Below, one piece after another: positions 1 to 6,065 of a stretch of 6,065 bases of DNA. Both the position numbers and the translations under genes were made by a program. This DNA comes from Candidatus Auribacterota bacterium (GTDB lineage Bacteria; Auribacterota; JAFGBW01). The notes under the pieces are model-generated. The model was not told where the DNA came from. It worked only from the letters and a program-made list of their open reading frames with translations, and made no database searches. Position 1 is the first letter of the stretch, and every line of letters begins with the position of its first letter. Where the stretch lies: contig JAFGBW010000078.1 in assembly GCA_016932965.1 (NCBI GenBank), forward strand, positions 1-6,065, given 5' to 3'.

Positions 1-513
1 CGACTGTATCTGCTCCTGCGACAGCGCGCTGATCTGGCCGCTGTCAAAATAATTCAGCTGATACGCATCCAGACCCGAAACCTGCGCCAAAGTCAGTTTC
101 GAAATATTATCCGGAGAAAGCCCGTAAACCTGATTTTTTGAAAGCAAATGTATCTGATCATCACTCAATTTTTCATTCATTTTTCCAATCGTCGTCCAAT
201 TCAACTGCTGAATGGTAGCATCTGAAATATAATCCATCTGCTCTCGCGTGAGTCCGTTGATTTGATCTTGAGACCATGAATTAAAATCCTGTGCATGGAG
301 TAAACCGATCTGATTCAATGATAATCTGGCAATATTGTCCCCGGATAACAGGTGAATATAATTTTTTGATAACTGCTGAACCTGCTCAGTGGAAAAATAG
401 GCCTGAATAACATCAAAAGTGGATGAGTTAAGCGATTCCAGTTTATCTTTCGTCAAAAAACGGACATAATCCGGATCCATCTTAAGGATTTCATCGTCAG
501 TATAAGTTTGAAT
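1..513 (-). repeat. Protein-level 8-residue repeat array
   Basis: Codons 170-340 of the gene starting at 1020 parse continuously into octads with hydrophobic residues at positions 1 and 4 and often Q/E at position 8. The register is broken by 4-residue insertions (12-residue units ending STEQ and SDDQ), with eight plain octads between them. The array continues past the left edge. The pattern fits a chain of short helices with Ser/Thr/Asp N-caps, a possible alpha-solenoid. Confidence 0.75.
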
Positions 514-1020
514 TTTATTTTTTAATTCCTGAGGGATGTCTATTGTAAGGACTCCATCCTTCAAAATTTTTATTTTGATTATATTGCCTGTGCTGTCTCT
601 GCAGTATTCCGTGTATCCGATCAATTGACCATATTCATTATAAATCAAGTTGCAGCGTTCAGAATATCCCGTGATATTTCCTTGCGGGTCATAGATGGCA
701 TTCTTCTTATAAATAATATTATTGTACTTATCTTTTAATACCAGATCTCCGCCTGTATTATCCCCGACTTTATATAATTGTTCCTTATCAAAATAATAAA
801 TACTCTTTGTGGGACCTTCATACAGAGAAGCATTGATTTTTATCCATTTGGATGTAACAGGCTGCTGCATCAGGAATGTGAATAAAGGATTATTAACCGA
901 AGCCGGACCAATTGCAGCATCATCCAGTCTGTCAATAGTAGCTTCTTTTGCCGAACCCGCCAGACAACCGAGTTCAAATGCTAGAATAACAATATTAATC
1001 ACTGTAACATATTGTTTCAT
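1..1020 (-). CDS. Secreted octad-repeat protein, N-terminal 340 residues (runs off the left edge)
   Basis: The frame is open from ATG at 1020 to the window edge (340 codons, no stop), so the C-terminus is missing. I do not recognise a named family. Residues 1-27 look like a Sec signal (MKQYVTVINIVILAFELGCL, then AGSAKEA); the Cys at 19 has Glu at -3, a poor lipobox, so signal peptidase I processing is favoured. Residues 107-148 hold a near-exact 17-residue duplication (Y110/Y127, G114/G131, GY at 118/135, C123/C140) resembling YD/RHS beta repeats. From about residue 170 to the edge the protein is 8-residue repeats of the form hydrophobic-x-x-hydrophobic-x-x-x-Q, for example SQDQINGL and TREQMDYI. 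The same repeat type builds the membrane protein at 1434-2393, so the two are probably paralogous. It has its own promoter and no clear Shine-Dalgarno. Export and repeats suggest a surface or periplasmic binding protein; this is inference. Confidence 0.85.
   Translation of the reverse strand, partial: MKQYVTVINIVILAFELGCLAGSAKEATIDRLDDAAIGPASVNNPLFTFLMQQPVTSKWIKINASLYEGPTKSIYYFDKEQLYKVGDNTGGDLVLKDKYNNIIYKKNAIYDPQGNITGYSERCNLIYNEYGQLIGYTEYCRDSTGNIIKIKILKDGVLTIDIPQELKNKIQTYTDDEILKMDPDYVRFLTKDKLESLNSSTFDVIQAYFSTEQVQQLSKNYIHLLSGDNIARLSLNQIGLLHAQDFNSWSQDQINGLTREQMDYISDATIQQLNWTTIGKMNEKLSDDQIHLLSKNQVYGLSPDNISKLTLAQVSGLDAYQLNYFDSGQISALSQEQIQS
577..702 (-). repeat. Tandem 17-residue YD-like duplication
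   Basis: Residues 107-148 of the protein starting at 1020 contain two copies aligned without gaps: YDPQGNITGYSERC (110-123) and YNEYGQLIGYTEYC (127-140), matching at Tyr, Gly, Gly-Tyr, Glu and Cys. A degenerate copy (DSTGNII) follows. The spacing resembles YD/RHS-type beta-hairpin repeats. The two Cys occupy equivalent positions and could pair in the oxidising periplasm. Confidence 0.6.
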
Positions 1021-1051
1021 AATATACCAATTATATCCATTTCTAATACAA

Positions 1052-1080
1052 ATTTTAACAAAAAACAATAATACTGTCAA
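1052..1080 (-). promoter_or_regulatory. Sigma-70 promoter for the gene starting at 1020
   Basis: On the minus strand a perfect -35 TTGACA (1075-1080) is followed after exactly 17 bases by TAAAAT (1052-1057), five of six matches to the -10 consensus. The start codon lies about 32 bases past the -10 box. Upstream, 1085-1134 is very AT-rich with T-tracts (1102-1107, 1116-1121, 1128-1134) that could serve as an UP element. Confidence 0.75.
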
Positions 1081-1177
1081 TAATTCTATACGTTAAAGTT
1101 GAAAAAACCAGCTATAAAAAATTTAATAAAAAAATCCTATTTCTGAAAATTCCTCTGGCCATTAAGAACAAAAAAAC

Positions 1178-1209
1178 AAAAAAAACGGATAATGATAACG
1201 ATCATATCC
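1178..1209 (-). terminator. Rho-independent terminator after the pilin gene
   Basis: Reading the minus strand, GGATATGAT pairs with ATCA plus TATCC around a CGTT loop (1187-1209), giving nine base pairs with one bulged T. One G and then eight T (1178-1185) follow, and after a G another seven T (1170-1176). The stem is AT-rich but the T-tracts are strong. It lies about 40 bases past the pilin stop and separates that unit from the promoter at 1052-1080. Confidence 0.7.
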
Positions 1210-1246
1210 TCACCTGACTGACAATCCCCCAGTCCAGACAGAAAAT

Positions 1247-1447
1247 TCACTGATTATATGACGCATTGTATGTGACAATGGCACGATTGACCGTTGCGAT
1301 CGTATAATCTTCTGCTTCTTCCTCGGCTTTTGTGCGCAAATCGATCAGCTTCGGAATGGCAATCAAAGCAATGATGCTCACGATTAAAACCACTAAAACA
1401 ATTTCAATCAGCGTCATTCCTTTAATAAATGGTTTATTCGTTTTCAT
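1247..1447 (-). CDS. Very short type IV prepilin (N-terminal helix only)
   Basis: The 66-residue product has a textbook prepilin N-terminus: a basic leader MKTNKPFIKG, the prepilin peptidase site G10|M11, then MTLIEIVLVVLIVS with Glu at mature position 5, Pro at mature 22, and an amphipathic helix. Predicted mature length is 56 residues; usual pilins and pseudopilins exceed 100 because of a C-terminal globular domain, absent here. Mature Met1 replaces the common Phe. It resembles in length the short PilA of Geobacter (about 60 mature residues), but has only three aromatic residues (Tyr38, Tyr50, Tyr54 mature). The start overlaps the end of the upstream repeat protein by 14 bases, suggesting coupling; the Shine-Dalgarno is weak (GGGA). 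Alternatives are a minor pilin or a pilin truncated by the TGA at 1247-1249; no downstream frame restores a plausible globular domain. Function as pilin subunit is inferred from the N-terminus. Confidence 0.88.
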   Translation of the reverse strand: MKTNKPFIKGMTLIEIVLVVLIVSIIALIAIPKLIDLRTKAEEEAEDYTIATVNRAIVTYNASYNQ

Positions 1448-2393
1448 TTATTCCCGCTATTAATGGAACAGAAGCCGAACCTCTTTCTGAGATTTCATTG
1501 ATGACTGATATTTGTTTATTTGAAAATGATTTCATTTTATTTGATTTCTTAATGAATGCAAGTTGATTAGCAGTGAAAAGCCGGATCCTTTCCTCCCGAA
1601 TCTCACGAAGTTTTTCAGGGGAAAGCCCCATGATCTGCCTGAAACTCAAACAAGGCTCCATAATCTGAAATTGACGGGAAGTGGCATGAACAAGCTGGGA
1701 AACTGAAAGACGCTGAATCTGTTCCGGCTCTAATTTTTTCAGCGTCTCAGCATCCAGGAGTGAAAAAACGGCGCTGTTCATCCGGATGATACGCTCAGGG
1801 GTCATGAAACGCTCTATAAAACGAAGCTGTTCTGCAGTCAAATTATTCAAAAACAGATCCGGTAAAGACTGTATTTCTGATGCATCAAGCTTTCCAAACA
1901 CATCCAATGGCAGAAAACGGACATGTGATTTAGGAAGCCCTAAGATTTGTTTCAGACTCAAACGAACAGCTATTGTTCGCAACTGATCCGGATAGAGTTT
2001 TGCTAATTGTCCATCCGTTATCTGCTGAACCTGTTCCGGTTCAAACCATTTCAGGATTTCAGCGTTCAGCCATGAAAAATGCATTGCATCCAATTGAATT
2101 AACTTTTCGAATGGAAGCTTGAACATGACGGCAGCAAACTGGTTCTGATCCAATGCATTCAACTGAATCGGGGAAAACAAGACTGCCCTCATCCTGTCCA
2201 GATGCACCAATTGAGCCGCCGGAATTCCTGTCATTTCTTTTAACGGAATTAAATCCGGCCGTTCCAGATTATAAACAATTGAATGCCACCTTTGTTTTTT
2301 CATTTGAAAAGTTAGTTCCATCAGTAAACCTGAAATAAAAAGGACGAAAACAATGACAAAAACGAACGGAAAAGACTTGAAAGGTTTTTTCAT
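1434..2393 (-). CDS. Membrane-anchored octad-repeat protein, 52-residue super-repeat
   Basis: A 319-residue protein of no family I recognise. Residues 7-25 form one hydrophobic segment after a basic start (MKKPFK), giving a signal anchor with the rest probably periplasmic. Residues 46 to about 285 are 8-residue repeats, hydrophobic at positions 1 and 4 and often Q at 8 (for example FEPEQVQQI). They have a second order: five octads plus one 12-residue unit make a 52-residue block repeated four times (46-97, 98-149, 150-201, 202-253) with a partial fifth. Blocks two and four are most alike (FSWLNAEILKWFEPEQ against FSLLDAETLKKLEPEQ). The C-tail is polar. The start is ATG at 2393 with a weak AAGAA eight bases upstream. 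The end overlaps the prepilin start, so the two are probably co-translated. It shares its repeat type with the secreted protein at 1-1020. A scaffold or partner role in pilus biogenesis is guessed from position. Confidence 0.85.
   Translation of the reverse strand: MKKPFKSFPFVFVIVFVLFISGLLMELTFQMKKQRWHSIVYNLERPDLIPLKEMTGIPAAQLVHLDRMRAVLFSPIQLNALDQNQFAAVMFKLPFEKLIQLDAMHFSWLNAEILKWFEPEQVQQITDGQLAKLYPDQLRTIAVRLSLKQILGLPKSHVRFLPLDVFGKLDASEIQSLPDLFLNNLTAEQLRFIERFMTPERIIRMNSAVFSLLDAETLKKLEPEQIQRLSVSQLVHATSRQFQIMEPCLSFRQIMGLSPEKLREIREERIRLFTANQLAFIKKSNKMKSFSNKQISVINEISERGSASVPLIAGINENE
1539..2258 (-). repeat. Four and a half 52-codon protein repeats (156-base period)
   Basis: Within the gene at 1434-2393, codons 46-253 divide exactly into four 52-codon blocks (2103-2258, 1947-2102, 1791-1946, 1635-1790) and a partial block down to about 1539. 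Each full block is five 8-residue units followed by one 12-residue unit, the extra four residues being KLPF-, VRLS-, FMTP- or CLSF-like. The period is visible in the protein; DNA-level identity between blocks looks low, so the duplications are old. Confidence 0.75.
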
Positions 2394-2511: not shown

Positions 2512-2583
2512 TTAGAATTCAGAAGCGAGAATCGAGAAGTCAGAAGAGTTGCAAGGCAGCCGAACGATTTCATGCTCCCATTC

Positions 2584-2602
2584 AAAACGCCAAAGGCGTT
2601 TT
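2584..2602. repeat. Perfect 8-bp hairpin, possible bidirectional terminator
   Basis: AAAACGCC (2584-2591), a three-base loop and GGCGTTTT (2595-2602) form a perfect stem. T-runs follow on both strands (TTTTT on plus, TTTT on minus), so it could act as a weak terminator either way. It lies inside the MITE-like element. Confidence 0.5.
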
Positions 2603-2646
2603 TGCTGAATTCTGAATCTCTGTACCGGAATGCAACGGAGATCGCG

Positions 2647-2671
2647 TCCCGAAGGGGAGTCCCGGAGGGAC
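2647..2671. repeat. Two tandem GC-rich hairpins
   Basis: TCCC-GAAG-GGGA (2647-2658) is followed immediately by GTCCC-GGA-GGGAC (2659-2671). The two are near copies of one another (GTCCCG starts at 2646 and 2659), so this is also a short tandem repeat of 13 bases. An alternative longer fold pairs GTCCC at 2646-2650 with GGGAC at 2667-2671. Confidence 0.5.
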
Positions 2672-2763
2672 GGCAGGGCGAAGACCGTAGCAATTCTCAA
2701 TTCTATGTCCGGGTTCTTTAAATCTTCAATAAAACCCTTTATTTTATTGTGTTTCATTTTATT

Positions 2764-2808: not shown

Positions 2809-2850
2809 AAAAACAGGCAACCATAAAATAGAATCGCCTCAACCTGCCTG
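2809..2850 (-). terminator. Terminator candidate after pilQ
   Basis: About 12 bases past the pilQ stop, the minus strand has CAGGCA (2845-2850) and TGCCTG (2814-2819), the latter followed directly by five T (2809-2813). An alternative stem inside it pairs AGGCGA with TTGCCT around a 13-base loop. The loops are large, so strength is moderate; partial read-through into the downstream genes is possible. Confidence 0.45.
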
Positions 2851-2861
2851 AGACTGAAGAT

Positions 2862-4808
2862 TTATTCATTATTCCTGACAATGGAAGGCGTGACGAAAAC
2901 GGTCAGGTTGATCTTGTTGTTGGTCGTATGTTTATAGGAAAATAATTTCCCCAGGATGGGTATACGGGAAAGAAAAGGAACTGAAGATCCCCCTTTTTCA
3001 TTTTTGTCCGACAGCAAACCGCCGATAACAACCGTATCTCCTCCTTTAACAACCAATTGAGTATTGGCTTCTCTGGTATTGATACGGTTTATCTGAAGCT
3101 GGGAAGAACCGACACTGCTTCCGATAGATGTGACGGACGGGCGAATAATCATGCTCACATAATCGTTATGAAGCACTCTCGGCAATACTTGTAATTGGAT
3201 TCCTATTGGCTCATAATGATCAAAAGTCTGCACCGTAGTTCCCTGGTCCGATGTGGAAGAACGAAGAATCGGATATCGTTCACCCACTAAAATAGAAGCC
3301 TCATTATTGTTTAGGGTCATAATAGAAGGATTGGAAATGATTTCGACATCCCCCCTGGTTTTTAAAGAATTCAGAATCAGATCAAACTGGGAAGCGCTTA
3401 AGGTTGCTGTTGTAATCCGGTTTATCGTGTTTGTATCCAGCGAATTCAGGGACTGGTCTAATGTATTTTTAACACTGGTATCATTGGTAATTTCTCCGGT
3501 ATCCAAAAATTGACTTGTTGTTGTCGTCACTCCAGATGGATCCGTACTGCTGGTCATCGTATTCAGGACCGTATCCAGATTGCTGTTCGTGGTATAATTA
3601 TCTGCCGCCGGCCTCCCATGGGTGGTATCATCGGTTTTTACATGATTACCTATATCCACAAAAGTTCTCGTTATTCTTCCATTCAGGTTTGCTTCTCCTC
3701 CCTGCGTAGCTCCAGCCAGTCCGAGATAAAACCCGCCGGTCCCGGTGGCCCCAGCTCCCAGAAAATCCCATCGGATTCCCAGATCCAGTTGTTCTTCTGC
3801 CTGACTTTCAATCATTTTGCTTTCAATTAAAATCTGCAATGGCATGACATCAAGTTCATCGATGAGCCTTTTGATGGCGGAAATAGCTGATGGAGTGTCA
3901 ATGACCATGAGTCTGTCCACCGTCTCCTGCGGTTTGGAAGTCTGACGAATCCCCTGTGAGATATTGGCAGAACTGCCTGTTACGGATGTTGGAGTATACC
4001 CGCCCTGGAGCGTAGGCTGCAGGGGAATGATCTTGCCGCGCTCCGTGTTCTGGCTTTTCAACAAATCAATGATATCCTTTCCGTTGAGGTATTTCAGTTC
4101 GAATATCTTCGTTAAGAGCTGCTCCAGCTCCAGCGTGGACTTCTTCATCTCATCCTCTTTCGCAAACTGTTCCCTCGTATCCACCTTCAGTAAATTTTCC
4201 TTGATGCGGTATTGGTATCCCCTTGAAATCACGACCGCTTCCAGCGCCGTGTCAAATGAAACATTCTCCAGCTTCAACGTAACGGTCCCCGTGACATCCT
4301 TACCGATCACATAATTCAGATTTTTTGCCGTGGCAATCATGGCTATGACATCCTGGATGTTCCCGTCCACATATTCTAATGAAATCGAATTATTCAAGCT
4401 TTCCGATGATCTATCCTCAGATATGTTTTCAGGAATGGTTTGATCTTGATCCGTTTGCAGCCTTTTCAGCTCTTTTTCACCGGAAACAGAAGAACCGACC
4501 TTCAAAAGGGAACCGATCCTTTCATATTCATATCCGTTGTCCACGATCACCTTTTTCAAGGCTTCTTCCAGGGGAACATGATCCAATTTGACGCTGATCG
4601 TGCCGGTCACTTCCTTTGCAATTTCGTAGTTGAAATTTTTCGTTGCCGCTATCAGCATGATGACATCTTTGATGTCCTGATCCTTTATATTCAGAGTGAT
4701 AGAATCATCCTCCTCAACCTGTGCAGGGGTAAAAGTCAAGGGCATGATCCCCAGTCCCAATATCAAAACGAGGAACAGGACCAGTTTATTTTTCCAAATG
4801 AAGTTCAT
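2862..4808 (-). CDS. pilQ: Type IV pilus outer-membrane secretin PilQ
   Basis: PilQ forms the gated outer-membrane ring through which the pilus passes. I choose ATG at 4808 (648 residues), five bases after GGAGG; an upstream TTG at 4832 would add eight residues but lacks such a site. Residues 1 to about 30 are a signal peptide (cut near TPA|QVEE). Two STN/N0 domains follow, at about 37-105 and 142-210, clearly duplicated (VTGTISVKL against VTGTVTLKL, both ending LLKV). An N1/NolW-like domain is at about 235-321 and the secretin domain runs from about 323 to the end, with the signature VPFLSRIPILGKLF at 610-623. No AMIN domain precedes the STN domains, unlike many PilQ proteins, and residues about 372-467 are a Thr/Ser/Asn/Asp-rich insertion. 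The start overlaps pilP by 23 bases. GspD or MshL are related alternatives, but the pilNOP neighbours make PilQ the best name. Confidence 0.95.
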   Translation of the reverse strand: MNFIWKNKLVLFLVLILGLGIMPLTFTPAQVEEDDSITLNIKDQDIKDVIMLIAATKNFNYEIAKEVTGTISVKLDHVPLEEALKKVIVDNGYEYERIGSLLKVGSSVSGEKELKRLQTDQDQTIPENISEDRSSESLNNSISLEYVDGNIQDVIAMIATAKNLNYVIGKDVTGTVTLKLENVSFDTALEAVVISRGYQYRIKENLLKVDTREQFAKEDEMKKSTLELEQLLTKIFELKYLNGKDIIDLLKSQNTERGKIIPLQPTLQGGYTPTSVTGSSANISQGIRQTSKPQETVDRLMVIDTPSAISAIKRLIDELDVMPLQILIESKMIESQAEEQLDLGIRWDFLGAGATGTGGFYLGLAGATQGGEANLNGRITRTFVDIGNHVKTDDTTHGRPAADNYTTNSNLDTVLNTMTSSTDPSGVTTTTSQFLDTGEITNDTSVKNTLDQSLNSLDTNTINRITTATLSASQFDLILNSLKTRGDVEIISNPSIMTLNNNEASILVGERYPILRSSTSDQGTTVQTFDHYEPIGIQLQVLPRVLHNDYVSMIIRPSVTSIGSSVGSSQLQINRINTREANTQLVVKGGDTVVIGGLLSDKNEKGGSSVPFLSRIPILGKLFSYKHTTNNKINLTVFVTPSIVRNNE

Positions 4809-5394
4809 ACCGCCCTCCGTTAATATCAACAATCACTGATTCCGGGTTAATCTGCTTCACAACGGCGCCTCCTGAATCTTTCACGGCCCCGCCCACCCCT
4901 ACGATACTCCTGTTGATGGTCGCGTAATAAACATTGCCGATTCTGCTGATTCCGGTAAGTTTTAAATTCTTCTCCCCCGCCGCAGGATGTTCCTTTTTTA
5001 TCGTCTCCTCGGGAAGGGGCTGCGCTTTAATTCCGCTTAGCTGGGCAGAAGCTTCTTCAGCAAAATTAGGATAAAAAGGGTCTAATCCCCATTCCCGATG
5101 GGCCGACTCATTCTGCTCTTTCAGGTACCTGTCTTTATTTTCATCTTTCATATGCACTTTTATCAACAGGTTTCCTGCCCGGTTTCCGCTTTTGTCCGAA
5201 GAAACACTTGAAGAAGGAAGTGCAGCAGACGGTTTATTCTCATTTGAAACCGCACTTTCCGTCTTGGGAGGTGTTTTTCCGCGGCTTTTCTTTTTTTTCA
5301 CATTGCTCAGCTGAATAAAAACAATGATACCCATAACAATGACCAGTCCCACGATCATCATGATCTGCTTTTTATCCTTTGAACTTAAGGCCAT
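4786..5394 (-). CDS. pilP: Type IV pilus assembly protein PilP
   Basis: PilP links the inner-membrane PilN/PilO pair to the PilQ secretin. The 202-residue product has a hydrophobic segment at about 11-29 after a basic start (SSKDKKQ), a long Lys/Ser/Pro/Asn-rich linker (about 33-95), a conserved DPF motif (105-107, in WGLDPFYPN), and a C-terminal PilP/GspC-type beta domain (about 143-200: LKLTGISRIGNVYYATI, then VGVGGAV, SVIVDI and the end ELHLEK). Most PilP proteins are lipoproteins with a lipobox Cys; none exists here, so this one seems anchored by a transmembrane helix as in GspC. The start overlaps the pilO stop by one base (TAATG), with AAGGA eight bases upstream. Its end overlaps pilQ. 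Order and C-terminal domain make PilP more likely than GspC. Confidence 0.9.
   Translation of the reverse strand: MALSSKDKKQIMMIVGLVIVMGIIVFIQLSNVKKKKSRGKTPPKTESAVSNENKPSAALPSSSVSSDKSGNRAGNLLIKVHMKDENKDRYLKEQNESAHREWGLDPFYPNFAEEASAQLSGIKAQPLPEETIKKEHPAAGEKNLKLTGISRIGNVYYATINRSIVGVGGAVKDSGGAVVKQINPESVIVDINGGRYELHLEK
4814..4818 (-). promoter_or_regulatory. Ribosome binding site that fixes the pilQ start
   Basis: GGAGG lies five bases before ATG 4808 and inside the end of pilP. It favours that codon over the in-frame TTG at 4832, which lies upstream of the site. Confidence 0.8.
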
Positions 5395-5960
5395 TATCCT
5401 TGTCCTTTTGAGATATACGTTTCAACCTGAATCTTTACCGATAATTTTGGGGCCATTAAGGTGCTTCTTCGTGCAATATAGACTTTTTTTATTGCCAGGG
5501 CTGTTTCGATCTCCTCCACCAGCTTCAGGTAACGGGCCAGCGTGGAATAATCGCTGATCAAATCAATAAAAATCATTCTGGAAATCACGGGCTTGTCTTT
5601 GAGTTCCATCTGATCGCCGGAAGAAACAGAAAGAACCATGACATCAAGAGAGGAAGTTTTCTCGGAAATTTGCCGGATGATTTCAGGCACCTTGTCTTCT
5701 TTGGGGAGCCGGTTATTTAAATAAACCATTTCTTTTTCAAGTTCTTTTCTTTCCACTTCCATTTCCGGGATACTGTTGACGGTTCCCATCACTTTTTCAC
5801 GGTCCGAATTCACTTTCTGAACCATTAAAGACGCCTGTTTAAAACGCATGATCATGGGTTTGAATAATGACAAGGCAAATACAATGGTCACTATCAGCAG
5901 TCCCAGAGAAATGAATATGCTTTTTTGATTTCTTGAAATCATGACTAGTACAACAGCCAT
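5394..5960 (-). CDS. pilO: Type IV pilus inner-membrane protein PilO
   Basis: PilO dimerises with PilN in the inner membrane and connects the cytoplasmic PilM platform to PilP. The 188-residue product has the family layout: short basic cytoplasmic tail (SRNQKS), one transmembrane helix (about 14-33), a charged coiled coil (about 40-85, with EMEVERKELEKEM) and a ferredoxin-like domain (about 90-185; MIFIDLISDYSTLARYL and the final beta strand KLSVKIQVETYI). The start is uncertain: ATG 5960 overlaps pilN by 16 bases but has AAAGG with no spacing; ATG 5942 (MISRNQ, 182 residues) begins two bases after the pilN stop and gives a more usual short tail, also without a clear site. Coupling to pilN is likely either way. 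Identification rests on architecture and gene order. Confidence 0.9.
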   Translation of the reverse strand: MAVVLVMISRNQKSIFISLGLLIVTIVFALSLFKPMIMRFKQASLMVQKVNSDREKVMGTVNSIPEMEVERKELEKEMVYLNNRLPKEDKVPEIIRQISEKTSSLDVMVLSVSSGDQMELKDKPVISRMIFIDLISDYSTLARYLKLVEEIETALAIKKVYIARRSTLMAPKLSVKIQVETYISKGQG

Positions 5961-6065
5961 CCTTTGATTTCGAATTCAGCCTGTTTGTTTTGGGAATCCG
6001 GTTTTTGCTCCATTCTCACCAGTTCCACCCCTTTGAAAAAAGGGGACTGGCCCATTTTTTCCATC
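5945..6065 (-). CDS. pilN: Type IV pilus inner-membrane protein PilN, C-terminal end only
   Basis: Only the last 39 codons are in the window, ending with TAG at 5945-5947. The visible end, MGQSPFFKGVELVRME followed about 15 residues later by AEFEIKGWLLY, matches the close of the PilN ferredoxin-like domain (serine-x-Phe-Phe/Tyr, then a final Phe-x-Ile strand). PilN binds the cytoplasmic actin-like PilM through its N-terminal tail, which lies outside the window. The gene directly precedes pilO, with a 16-base overlap if pilO starts at 5960. Identification depends on the short match plus gene order. Confidence 0.85.
   Translation of the reverse strand, partial: MEKMGQSPFFKGVELVRMEQKPDSQNKQAEFEIKGWLLY

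Follow-up and report, generated by a model that had tools for sequence, protein, structure and literature searches.

An alpha1-only prepilin beside an exported pilin head fused to octad repeats: a candidate split type IV pilin in Candidatus Auribacterota

Type IV pilins divided between two chains have been described chiefly in Geobacter and related bacteria, and what the division means, a heterodimeric pilus or a chaperone, is disputed. In Geobacter, the two genes are adjacent and have been attributed to gene fission, and PilA-C carries a signal peptide (PMC5174107). A type IV pilus composed of equal parts of PilA-N and PilA-C was seen by cryo-EM (PMC12954529); the heterodimeric filament has been disputed, and a chaperone role was proposed for PilA-C (PMC8844916). 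The ALTTAQ octad proteins form a known Pfam class (PF20080) whose function is not known, and a literature search on ALTTAQ and HeliScrew found no described function for ALTTAQ octad solenoids. Here we describe a locus of Candidatus Auribacterota that, judged from its sequence, would encode a functional split type IV pilin like Geobacter PilA-N/PilA-C, a reading to which we assign a probability of roughly 0.58. The new point is a pilin head fused to octads beside an alpha1-only pilin, the octads themselves being of a known class.

The window, that is, the whole stretch of DNA analysed, is an entire contig of 6065 bases (C138) from a 3.14-Mb metagenome-assembled genome of 300 contigs. Along the minus strand, the 3′ end of a pilN-like gene is followed by pilO, a pilP-like gene, pilQ, a spacer with a dispersed repeat, and the genes for P0002, P0003 and P0001. 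The last of these runs off the end of the contig, and the C-terminus of P0001 is therefore missing. An earlier interpretation made from the DNA letters alone (the sequence-only reading) had the open reading frames (ORFs), their strand and their order downstream of pilNOPQ right. The genes are as follows.

5942–6065, minus strand: PilN-like gene, 3′ end, assigned from gene order only
5394–5960, minus strand: PilO
4786–5394, minus strand: PilP-like protein, assigned from position and N-terminal anchor, with no Pfam match
2862–4808, minus strand: PilQ secretin
1434–2393, minus strand: P0002, membrane-anchored octad protein of 319 aa
1247–1447, minus strand: P0003, alpha1-only prepilin of 66 aa (56 aa when mature), cleavage at G/MTLIE
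1–1020, minus strand: P0001, at least 340 aa, with a signal peptide, a pilin-type globular head, a YD-like beta region and an octad superhelix

The stop codon of the P0002 gene overlaps the start of the prepilin P0003 gene by 14 nt, and P0001 lies past a hairpin and T-run, both as previously described. The dispersed repeat, which is non-coding, occupies positions 2442–2720 between pilQ and P0002, and about 20 partial copies of 71–96% identity occur elsewhere in the genome. An 81-aa ORF (MKHNKIKGFIEDLKNPDIEL..., window 2512–2757, minus strand) starts upstream of this repeat and reads into it; it may be what is left of a gene that the repeat interrupted. Three candidate transcription signals were located around the genes.

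2837–2859, minus strand: terminator-like hairpin directly 3′ of pilQ
1164–1209, minus strand: hairpin (1187–1209) and then a T-rich run after the stub pilin, a likely terminator
1052–1080, minus strand: promoter-like site TTGACA-17-TAAAAT upstream of P0001, 11/12 to consensus, a consensus match only

Since a hairpin directly follows pilQ, P0002 and the pilin are probably a transcription unit separate from pilQ, and the 14-nt overlap suggests that the expression of these two genes is coupled. The hairpin before P0001 and the promoter-like site of its own suggest that P0001 and the stub pilin are not transcribed together, and the dose of P0001 may thus be set separately. The stem at 1187–1209 is A+T-rich and was missed by a terminator scan, and the regional fold z-score was not significant. 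The Rfam search gave no match.

P0003 carries the prepilin-peptidase motif KG/MTLIE before a hydrophobic alpha1 and scored above the TIGR02532 cut-off (23.5 vs 16.3). As the sequence-only reading had recognized, this 66-aa pilin has no C-terminal globular head in its own chain. Head-coding sequence was absent from all three downstream frames, and the possibility that P0003 is an intact pilin with a frameshift was rejected for that reason. Profile alignment showed that the end of P0003 corresponds to the start of the head in its intact relatives. Its best match in the PDB was Geobacter geopilin domain 1 (9egp), and 7tgg and 2m7g/6vk9 were also matched. The idea of a conductive pilin was rejected, because P0003 contains only 3 Tyr, none of them before position 38. 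Another prepilin in the source genome (L165:1103-1652, on G000:C161) breaks off after alpha1 at 74 aa and is followed by an overlapping 135-aa ORF, an apparent frameshift of biological origin or due to an assembly error. Among the prepilins found here, P0003 was the only one that stopped after alpha1 and was neither cut nor frameshifted.

The claim that neither octad protein matches a pilus component did not survive for P0001, the N-terminal domain of which is a pilin head. Two regions follow its signal peptide, which has a Glu within the hydrophobic stretch.

751–942, minus strand: pilin head of P0001 (residues ~27–90), sharing homology with intact GFTLIEL prepilins in their C-terminal half
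571–738, minus strand: beta-rich, YD/RHS-like stretch of P0001 (residues ~95–150), a weak match below the Pfam cut-offs that is also present in the G002 relative

When searched alone, P0001 residues 24–165 had two matches: an exported 285-aa protein of genome G002 (E 5e-17) and, in G006, a prepilin-like protein that was matched in its C-terminal half (E 4e-5). The latter, located in a minor-pilin operon with a GspK-like gene (L138:8796-9200), has Gln for Glu at position 5 (SDG/LSIVQ). A profile made from the three heads, with 14 invariant columns, found eight further proteins with the canonical prepilin motif in seven genomes, one within the phylum (G013) and the others outside it (G311, G160, two in G241, G260, G174 and G221). 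The G260 prepilin is encoded directly 3′ of a pilC-like gene, the position of a major pilin. Because the same domain occurs in prepilins with the canonical motif from several bacterial phyla, residues ~27–90 of P0001 are, by homology, a globular pilin head from a family of type IV pilins. The head profile found no credible match among PDB sequences, Geobacter PilA-C included, and the AlphaFold2 model of the P0001 head was too poor for structural comparison.

A pilin model built from seven intact pilins, all from outside the phylum, matched P0003 over columns 8–62 (E 3e-13) and P0001 over columns 74–118 (E 4e-5; both at Z=5000), with no overlap between the two. When P0003 and P0001 were joined in silico, they were recognized as one domain over columns 8–119 with 76.5 bits, as compared with 48.1 and 21.9 bits when apart. 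The best of 1902 scored shuffles reached 10.1 bits vs 24.3 for the head, and among 5487 ORFs the head half alone was matched by P0001 and the G002 protein only, the next score being 6.2 bits. Profile–profile comparison gave a probability of 96.8% (E 2e-10). The complementarity of these columns within one pilin model, together with the layout of an alpha1-only pilin adjoining an exported head gene on the same strand, argues for a split pilin. Exported detached heads also exist in two genomes of the same order, namely a 234-aa protein of G001 in a probable polysaccharide-export cluster (L161:6037-6741) and the 285-aa G002 protein, which has YD-like repeats and is encoded beside flagellar genes close to the end of a short contig (L137:2775-3632). 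The P0001 head could accordingly be a reused binding module from a small order-level exported family, with the stub acting on its own as a minimal pilin or pseudopilin. We regard this as rather unlikely, albeit worth serious attention: both detached heads carry other bodies and have no stub pilin in view, which indicates that such heads do not necessarily pair with a stub and may have a use of their own, and P0001 has a separate promoter-like site. However, the end of the stub coincides exactly with the start of the head, and P0001, the only head-domain gene found in the source genome, adjoins the only uncut and unshifted alpha1-only prepilin, an adjacency expected by chance at about 0.1% if roughly 3000 genes are assumed, as estimated from 3.1 Mb.

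The locus could also be a relic, in which P0003 is a decayed pilin, P0001 was scrambled by rearrangement beside the dispersed repeat, and neither works. The dispersed repeat does adjoin the locus, and an apparently frameshifted prepilin is found elsewhere in the genome. Against decay, the frames of P0001, P0002 and P0003 are open with GC by codon position similar to that of the pil genes, the cleavage motif is intact, a strict 52-residue phasing is retained in P0002, and the promoter and terminator are plausible, so that we consider a relic very improbable.

The eight-residue repeat itself, as described from the sequence, was evident in both P0001 and P0002. Lag-8 self-matching gave z=7.0 for P0001 residues 160–340 and z=5.0 for P0002 residues 30–300, values that were reached by 0/1000 shuffles in each case. 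The repeat regions and the anchor of P0002 are located as follows.

1–504, minus strand: ALTTAQ octads of P0001 (residues 173–340), 20 octads with two 4-residue insertions
1506–2129, minus strand: four 52-residue super-repeats of P0002 (residues 89–296), each of 4 residues plus 6 octads
2319–2375, minus strand: transmembrane segment of P0002 (residues 7–25), mean Kyte–Doolittle 2.61

The 4-residue insertions had been called occasional; they are present, and in P0002 they are regular, recurring every 52 residues (6 octads + 4; lag-52 z=7.8) in the units 89–140, 141–192, 193–244 and 245–296. An octad profile trained on three rhizobial/Thioclava proteins only detected 20 octads in P0001 with a score of 100.7 (best of 500 shuffles, 16.0) and 28 octads in P0002 with a score of 73.2 (shuffle maximum, 13.4), while the scores of the pilin, PilO, PilP and PilQ were inside or near those of their own shuffles. 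P0001 passed the Pfam gathering threshold for PF20080 (ALTTAQ_rpt) with 34.8 vs 26.4 bits, and P0002 remained under it with 16.3 vs 26.4 bits. The repeat, earlier called unusual, is thus of the known ALTTAQ class, above threshold in P0001 and below it in P0002. Sub-threshold Pfam matches to CAAP1 and Peptidase_M15 were judged spurious. The repeats of the two proteins align with each other (E 3e-8 for the pair), which is not proof of recent common ancestry, since octad proteins in general would align. In AlphaFold2 models, each octad of P0001 and P0002 was predicted to form one helix of 4–6 residues. The pLDDT was ~85–90 in the later P0001 repeats and confidence was modest for P0002 (mean pLDDT 58, repeats ~70); AlphaFold2 is over-confident on some repeat sequences, as demonstrated for beta-solenoids (PMC11795689). 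The best solved Foldseek match of the octad solenoid was mesothelin (E 4e-4), with a TM-score of only ~0.2–0.3; for the comparison with armadillo/mesothelin-type solenoids, VIA Z values, drawn from a crowded list, did not exceed 6.4. Mesothelin, a surface protein linked to cell adhesion, is described as a right-handed solenoid built from 24 short helices (PMC10035497).

Within the source genome, octad genes were found at this locus only and are not scattered genome-wide. No credible octad protein was found in the 383 other genomes (384 searched in all, 44 of them from the phylum), and a PF20080 search over the phylum gave nothing convincing outside the source genome. Octad matches in G288 and G061 were dismissed as DNA-repeat or low-complexity noise. 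A search of phages and viral contigs for octad proteins yielded none, and a contig search with P0001 as the query gave no match. The expected recurrence of octads beside pilQ was not borne out: in eight relatives, the neighbourhood of pilQ contained no octad ORF, a negative outcome that mainly reflects the scarcity of homologues. At seven plasmid loci of ALTTAQ proteins, pilus genes were absent and the ALTTAQ genes adjoined glycosyltransferase, katG, mprF and other genes. The Shinella and Roseateles plasmids (L131, L132) have in common a 6.8-kb ALTTAQ gene beside katG and a hydrogen-peroxide-inducible activator gene. These results bear on the proposal that the two octad proteins are accessory pilus parts, such as a tip adhesin, chaperone or scaffold, by virtue of their repeats, and that P0001 does not serve as a subunit. 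The confinement of octads to this locus in the source genome, the overlap of P0002 with the pilin start, and the resemblance of the solenoid to mesothelin, with its tie to cell adhesion, speak for it. It is nevertheless improbable, because it does not account for the presence of a pilin head in P0001 and finds no recurrence beside pili in the eight relatives, the 383 other genomes or the seven plasmid loci. Of the accessory module first envisaged, the notion of a pilin partner is upheld for P0001 through the head that the stub lacks, and the association beside pilQ was not upheld in relatives.

With regard to the split pilin, we propose the following course. P0003 would supply the prepilin leader and alpha1 helix, stopping at the alpha1/head junction according to the profile alignment, and P0001 would supply the missing head, separately exported and extended by the beta-rich stretch and a superhelical ALTTAQ arm of predicted fold. 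On the model of Geobacter PilA-N/PilA-C, the head should dock non-covalently on the P0003 alpha1 at the inner membrane, and the adjacent PilNOPQ machine may assemble the pair into a pilus or pseudopilus that displays the octad arm on the filament surface, probably for binding or adhesion. The 14-nt overlap of P0002 with the pilin start suggests a role in assembly or as a tether; P0002 would be a membrane-anchored octad rod, most likely, if speculatively, an assembly factor or tether keeping P0001 near alpha1, and might hold P0001 by octad–octad contacts, which is a guess. The full scheme, a two-chain subunit in which an exported head brings an octad arm onto the filament and a membrane-anchored octad protein loads the head, with an independent origin of the split, is possible and is offered tentatively. 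If true, it would represent a modular way to decorate pili and a plausible place of work for ALTTAQ octad solenoids. A second case with a seemingly unrelated head points to division of pilins at the alpha1/head junction on more than one occasion, and comparative analysis could then test whether stub pilins depend on separate heads. The arrangement of stub pilin, detached head and octads was found in one genome only.

As in Geobacter PilA-N/PilA-C (GSU1496/GSU1497, geopilin domains 1 and 2; PDB 6VK9, 7TGG), an alpha1-only prepilin adjoins an exported-head gene. In contrast to PilA-C, the P0001 head shows no detectable relationship to a solved chain, and P0001 adds the beta-rich stretch, the octad superhelix and a separate promoter, in a different phylum; unlike PilA-N, P0003 is without aromatic residues in its first 37 positions. 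In the GFTLIEL prepilins of the head family (for example, G260:C44, G241:C148 and G160:C262), the two halves can be aligned over their full extent with P0003 and P0001, but they are in one gene and no octads follow. The octad L-[ST]-x-x-Q-[IV]-x-x is common to P0001, P0002 and the ALTTAQ proteins (PF20080) of rhizobia, Shinella and Thioclava. The three ALTTAQ proteins examined are nearly pure repeat, 777–2304 residues long and without a pilin head, whereas the octads of P0001 and P0002 are short, degenerate, and exported or anchored, with those of P0002 phased at 52 residues. The solved 120-residue chain of HeliScrew4 (PDB 9zem), the name of which suggests a designed protein, matched the octad sequences of P0001 (E 1e-7) and P0002 (5e-5). 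Mesothelin is alike in being a surface protein with a right-handed solenoid of short helices, a likeness that, at its low TM-score, is one of similar layout only.
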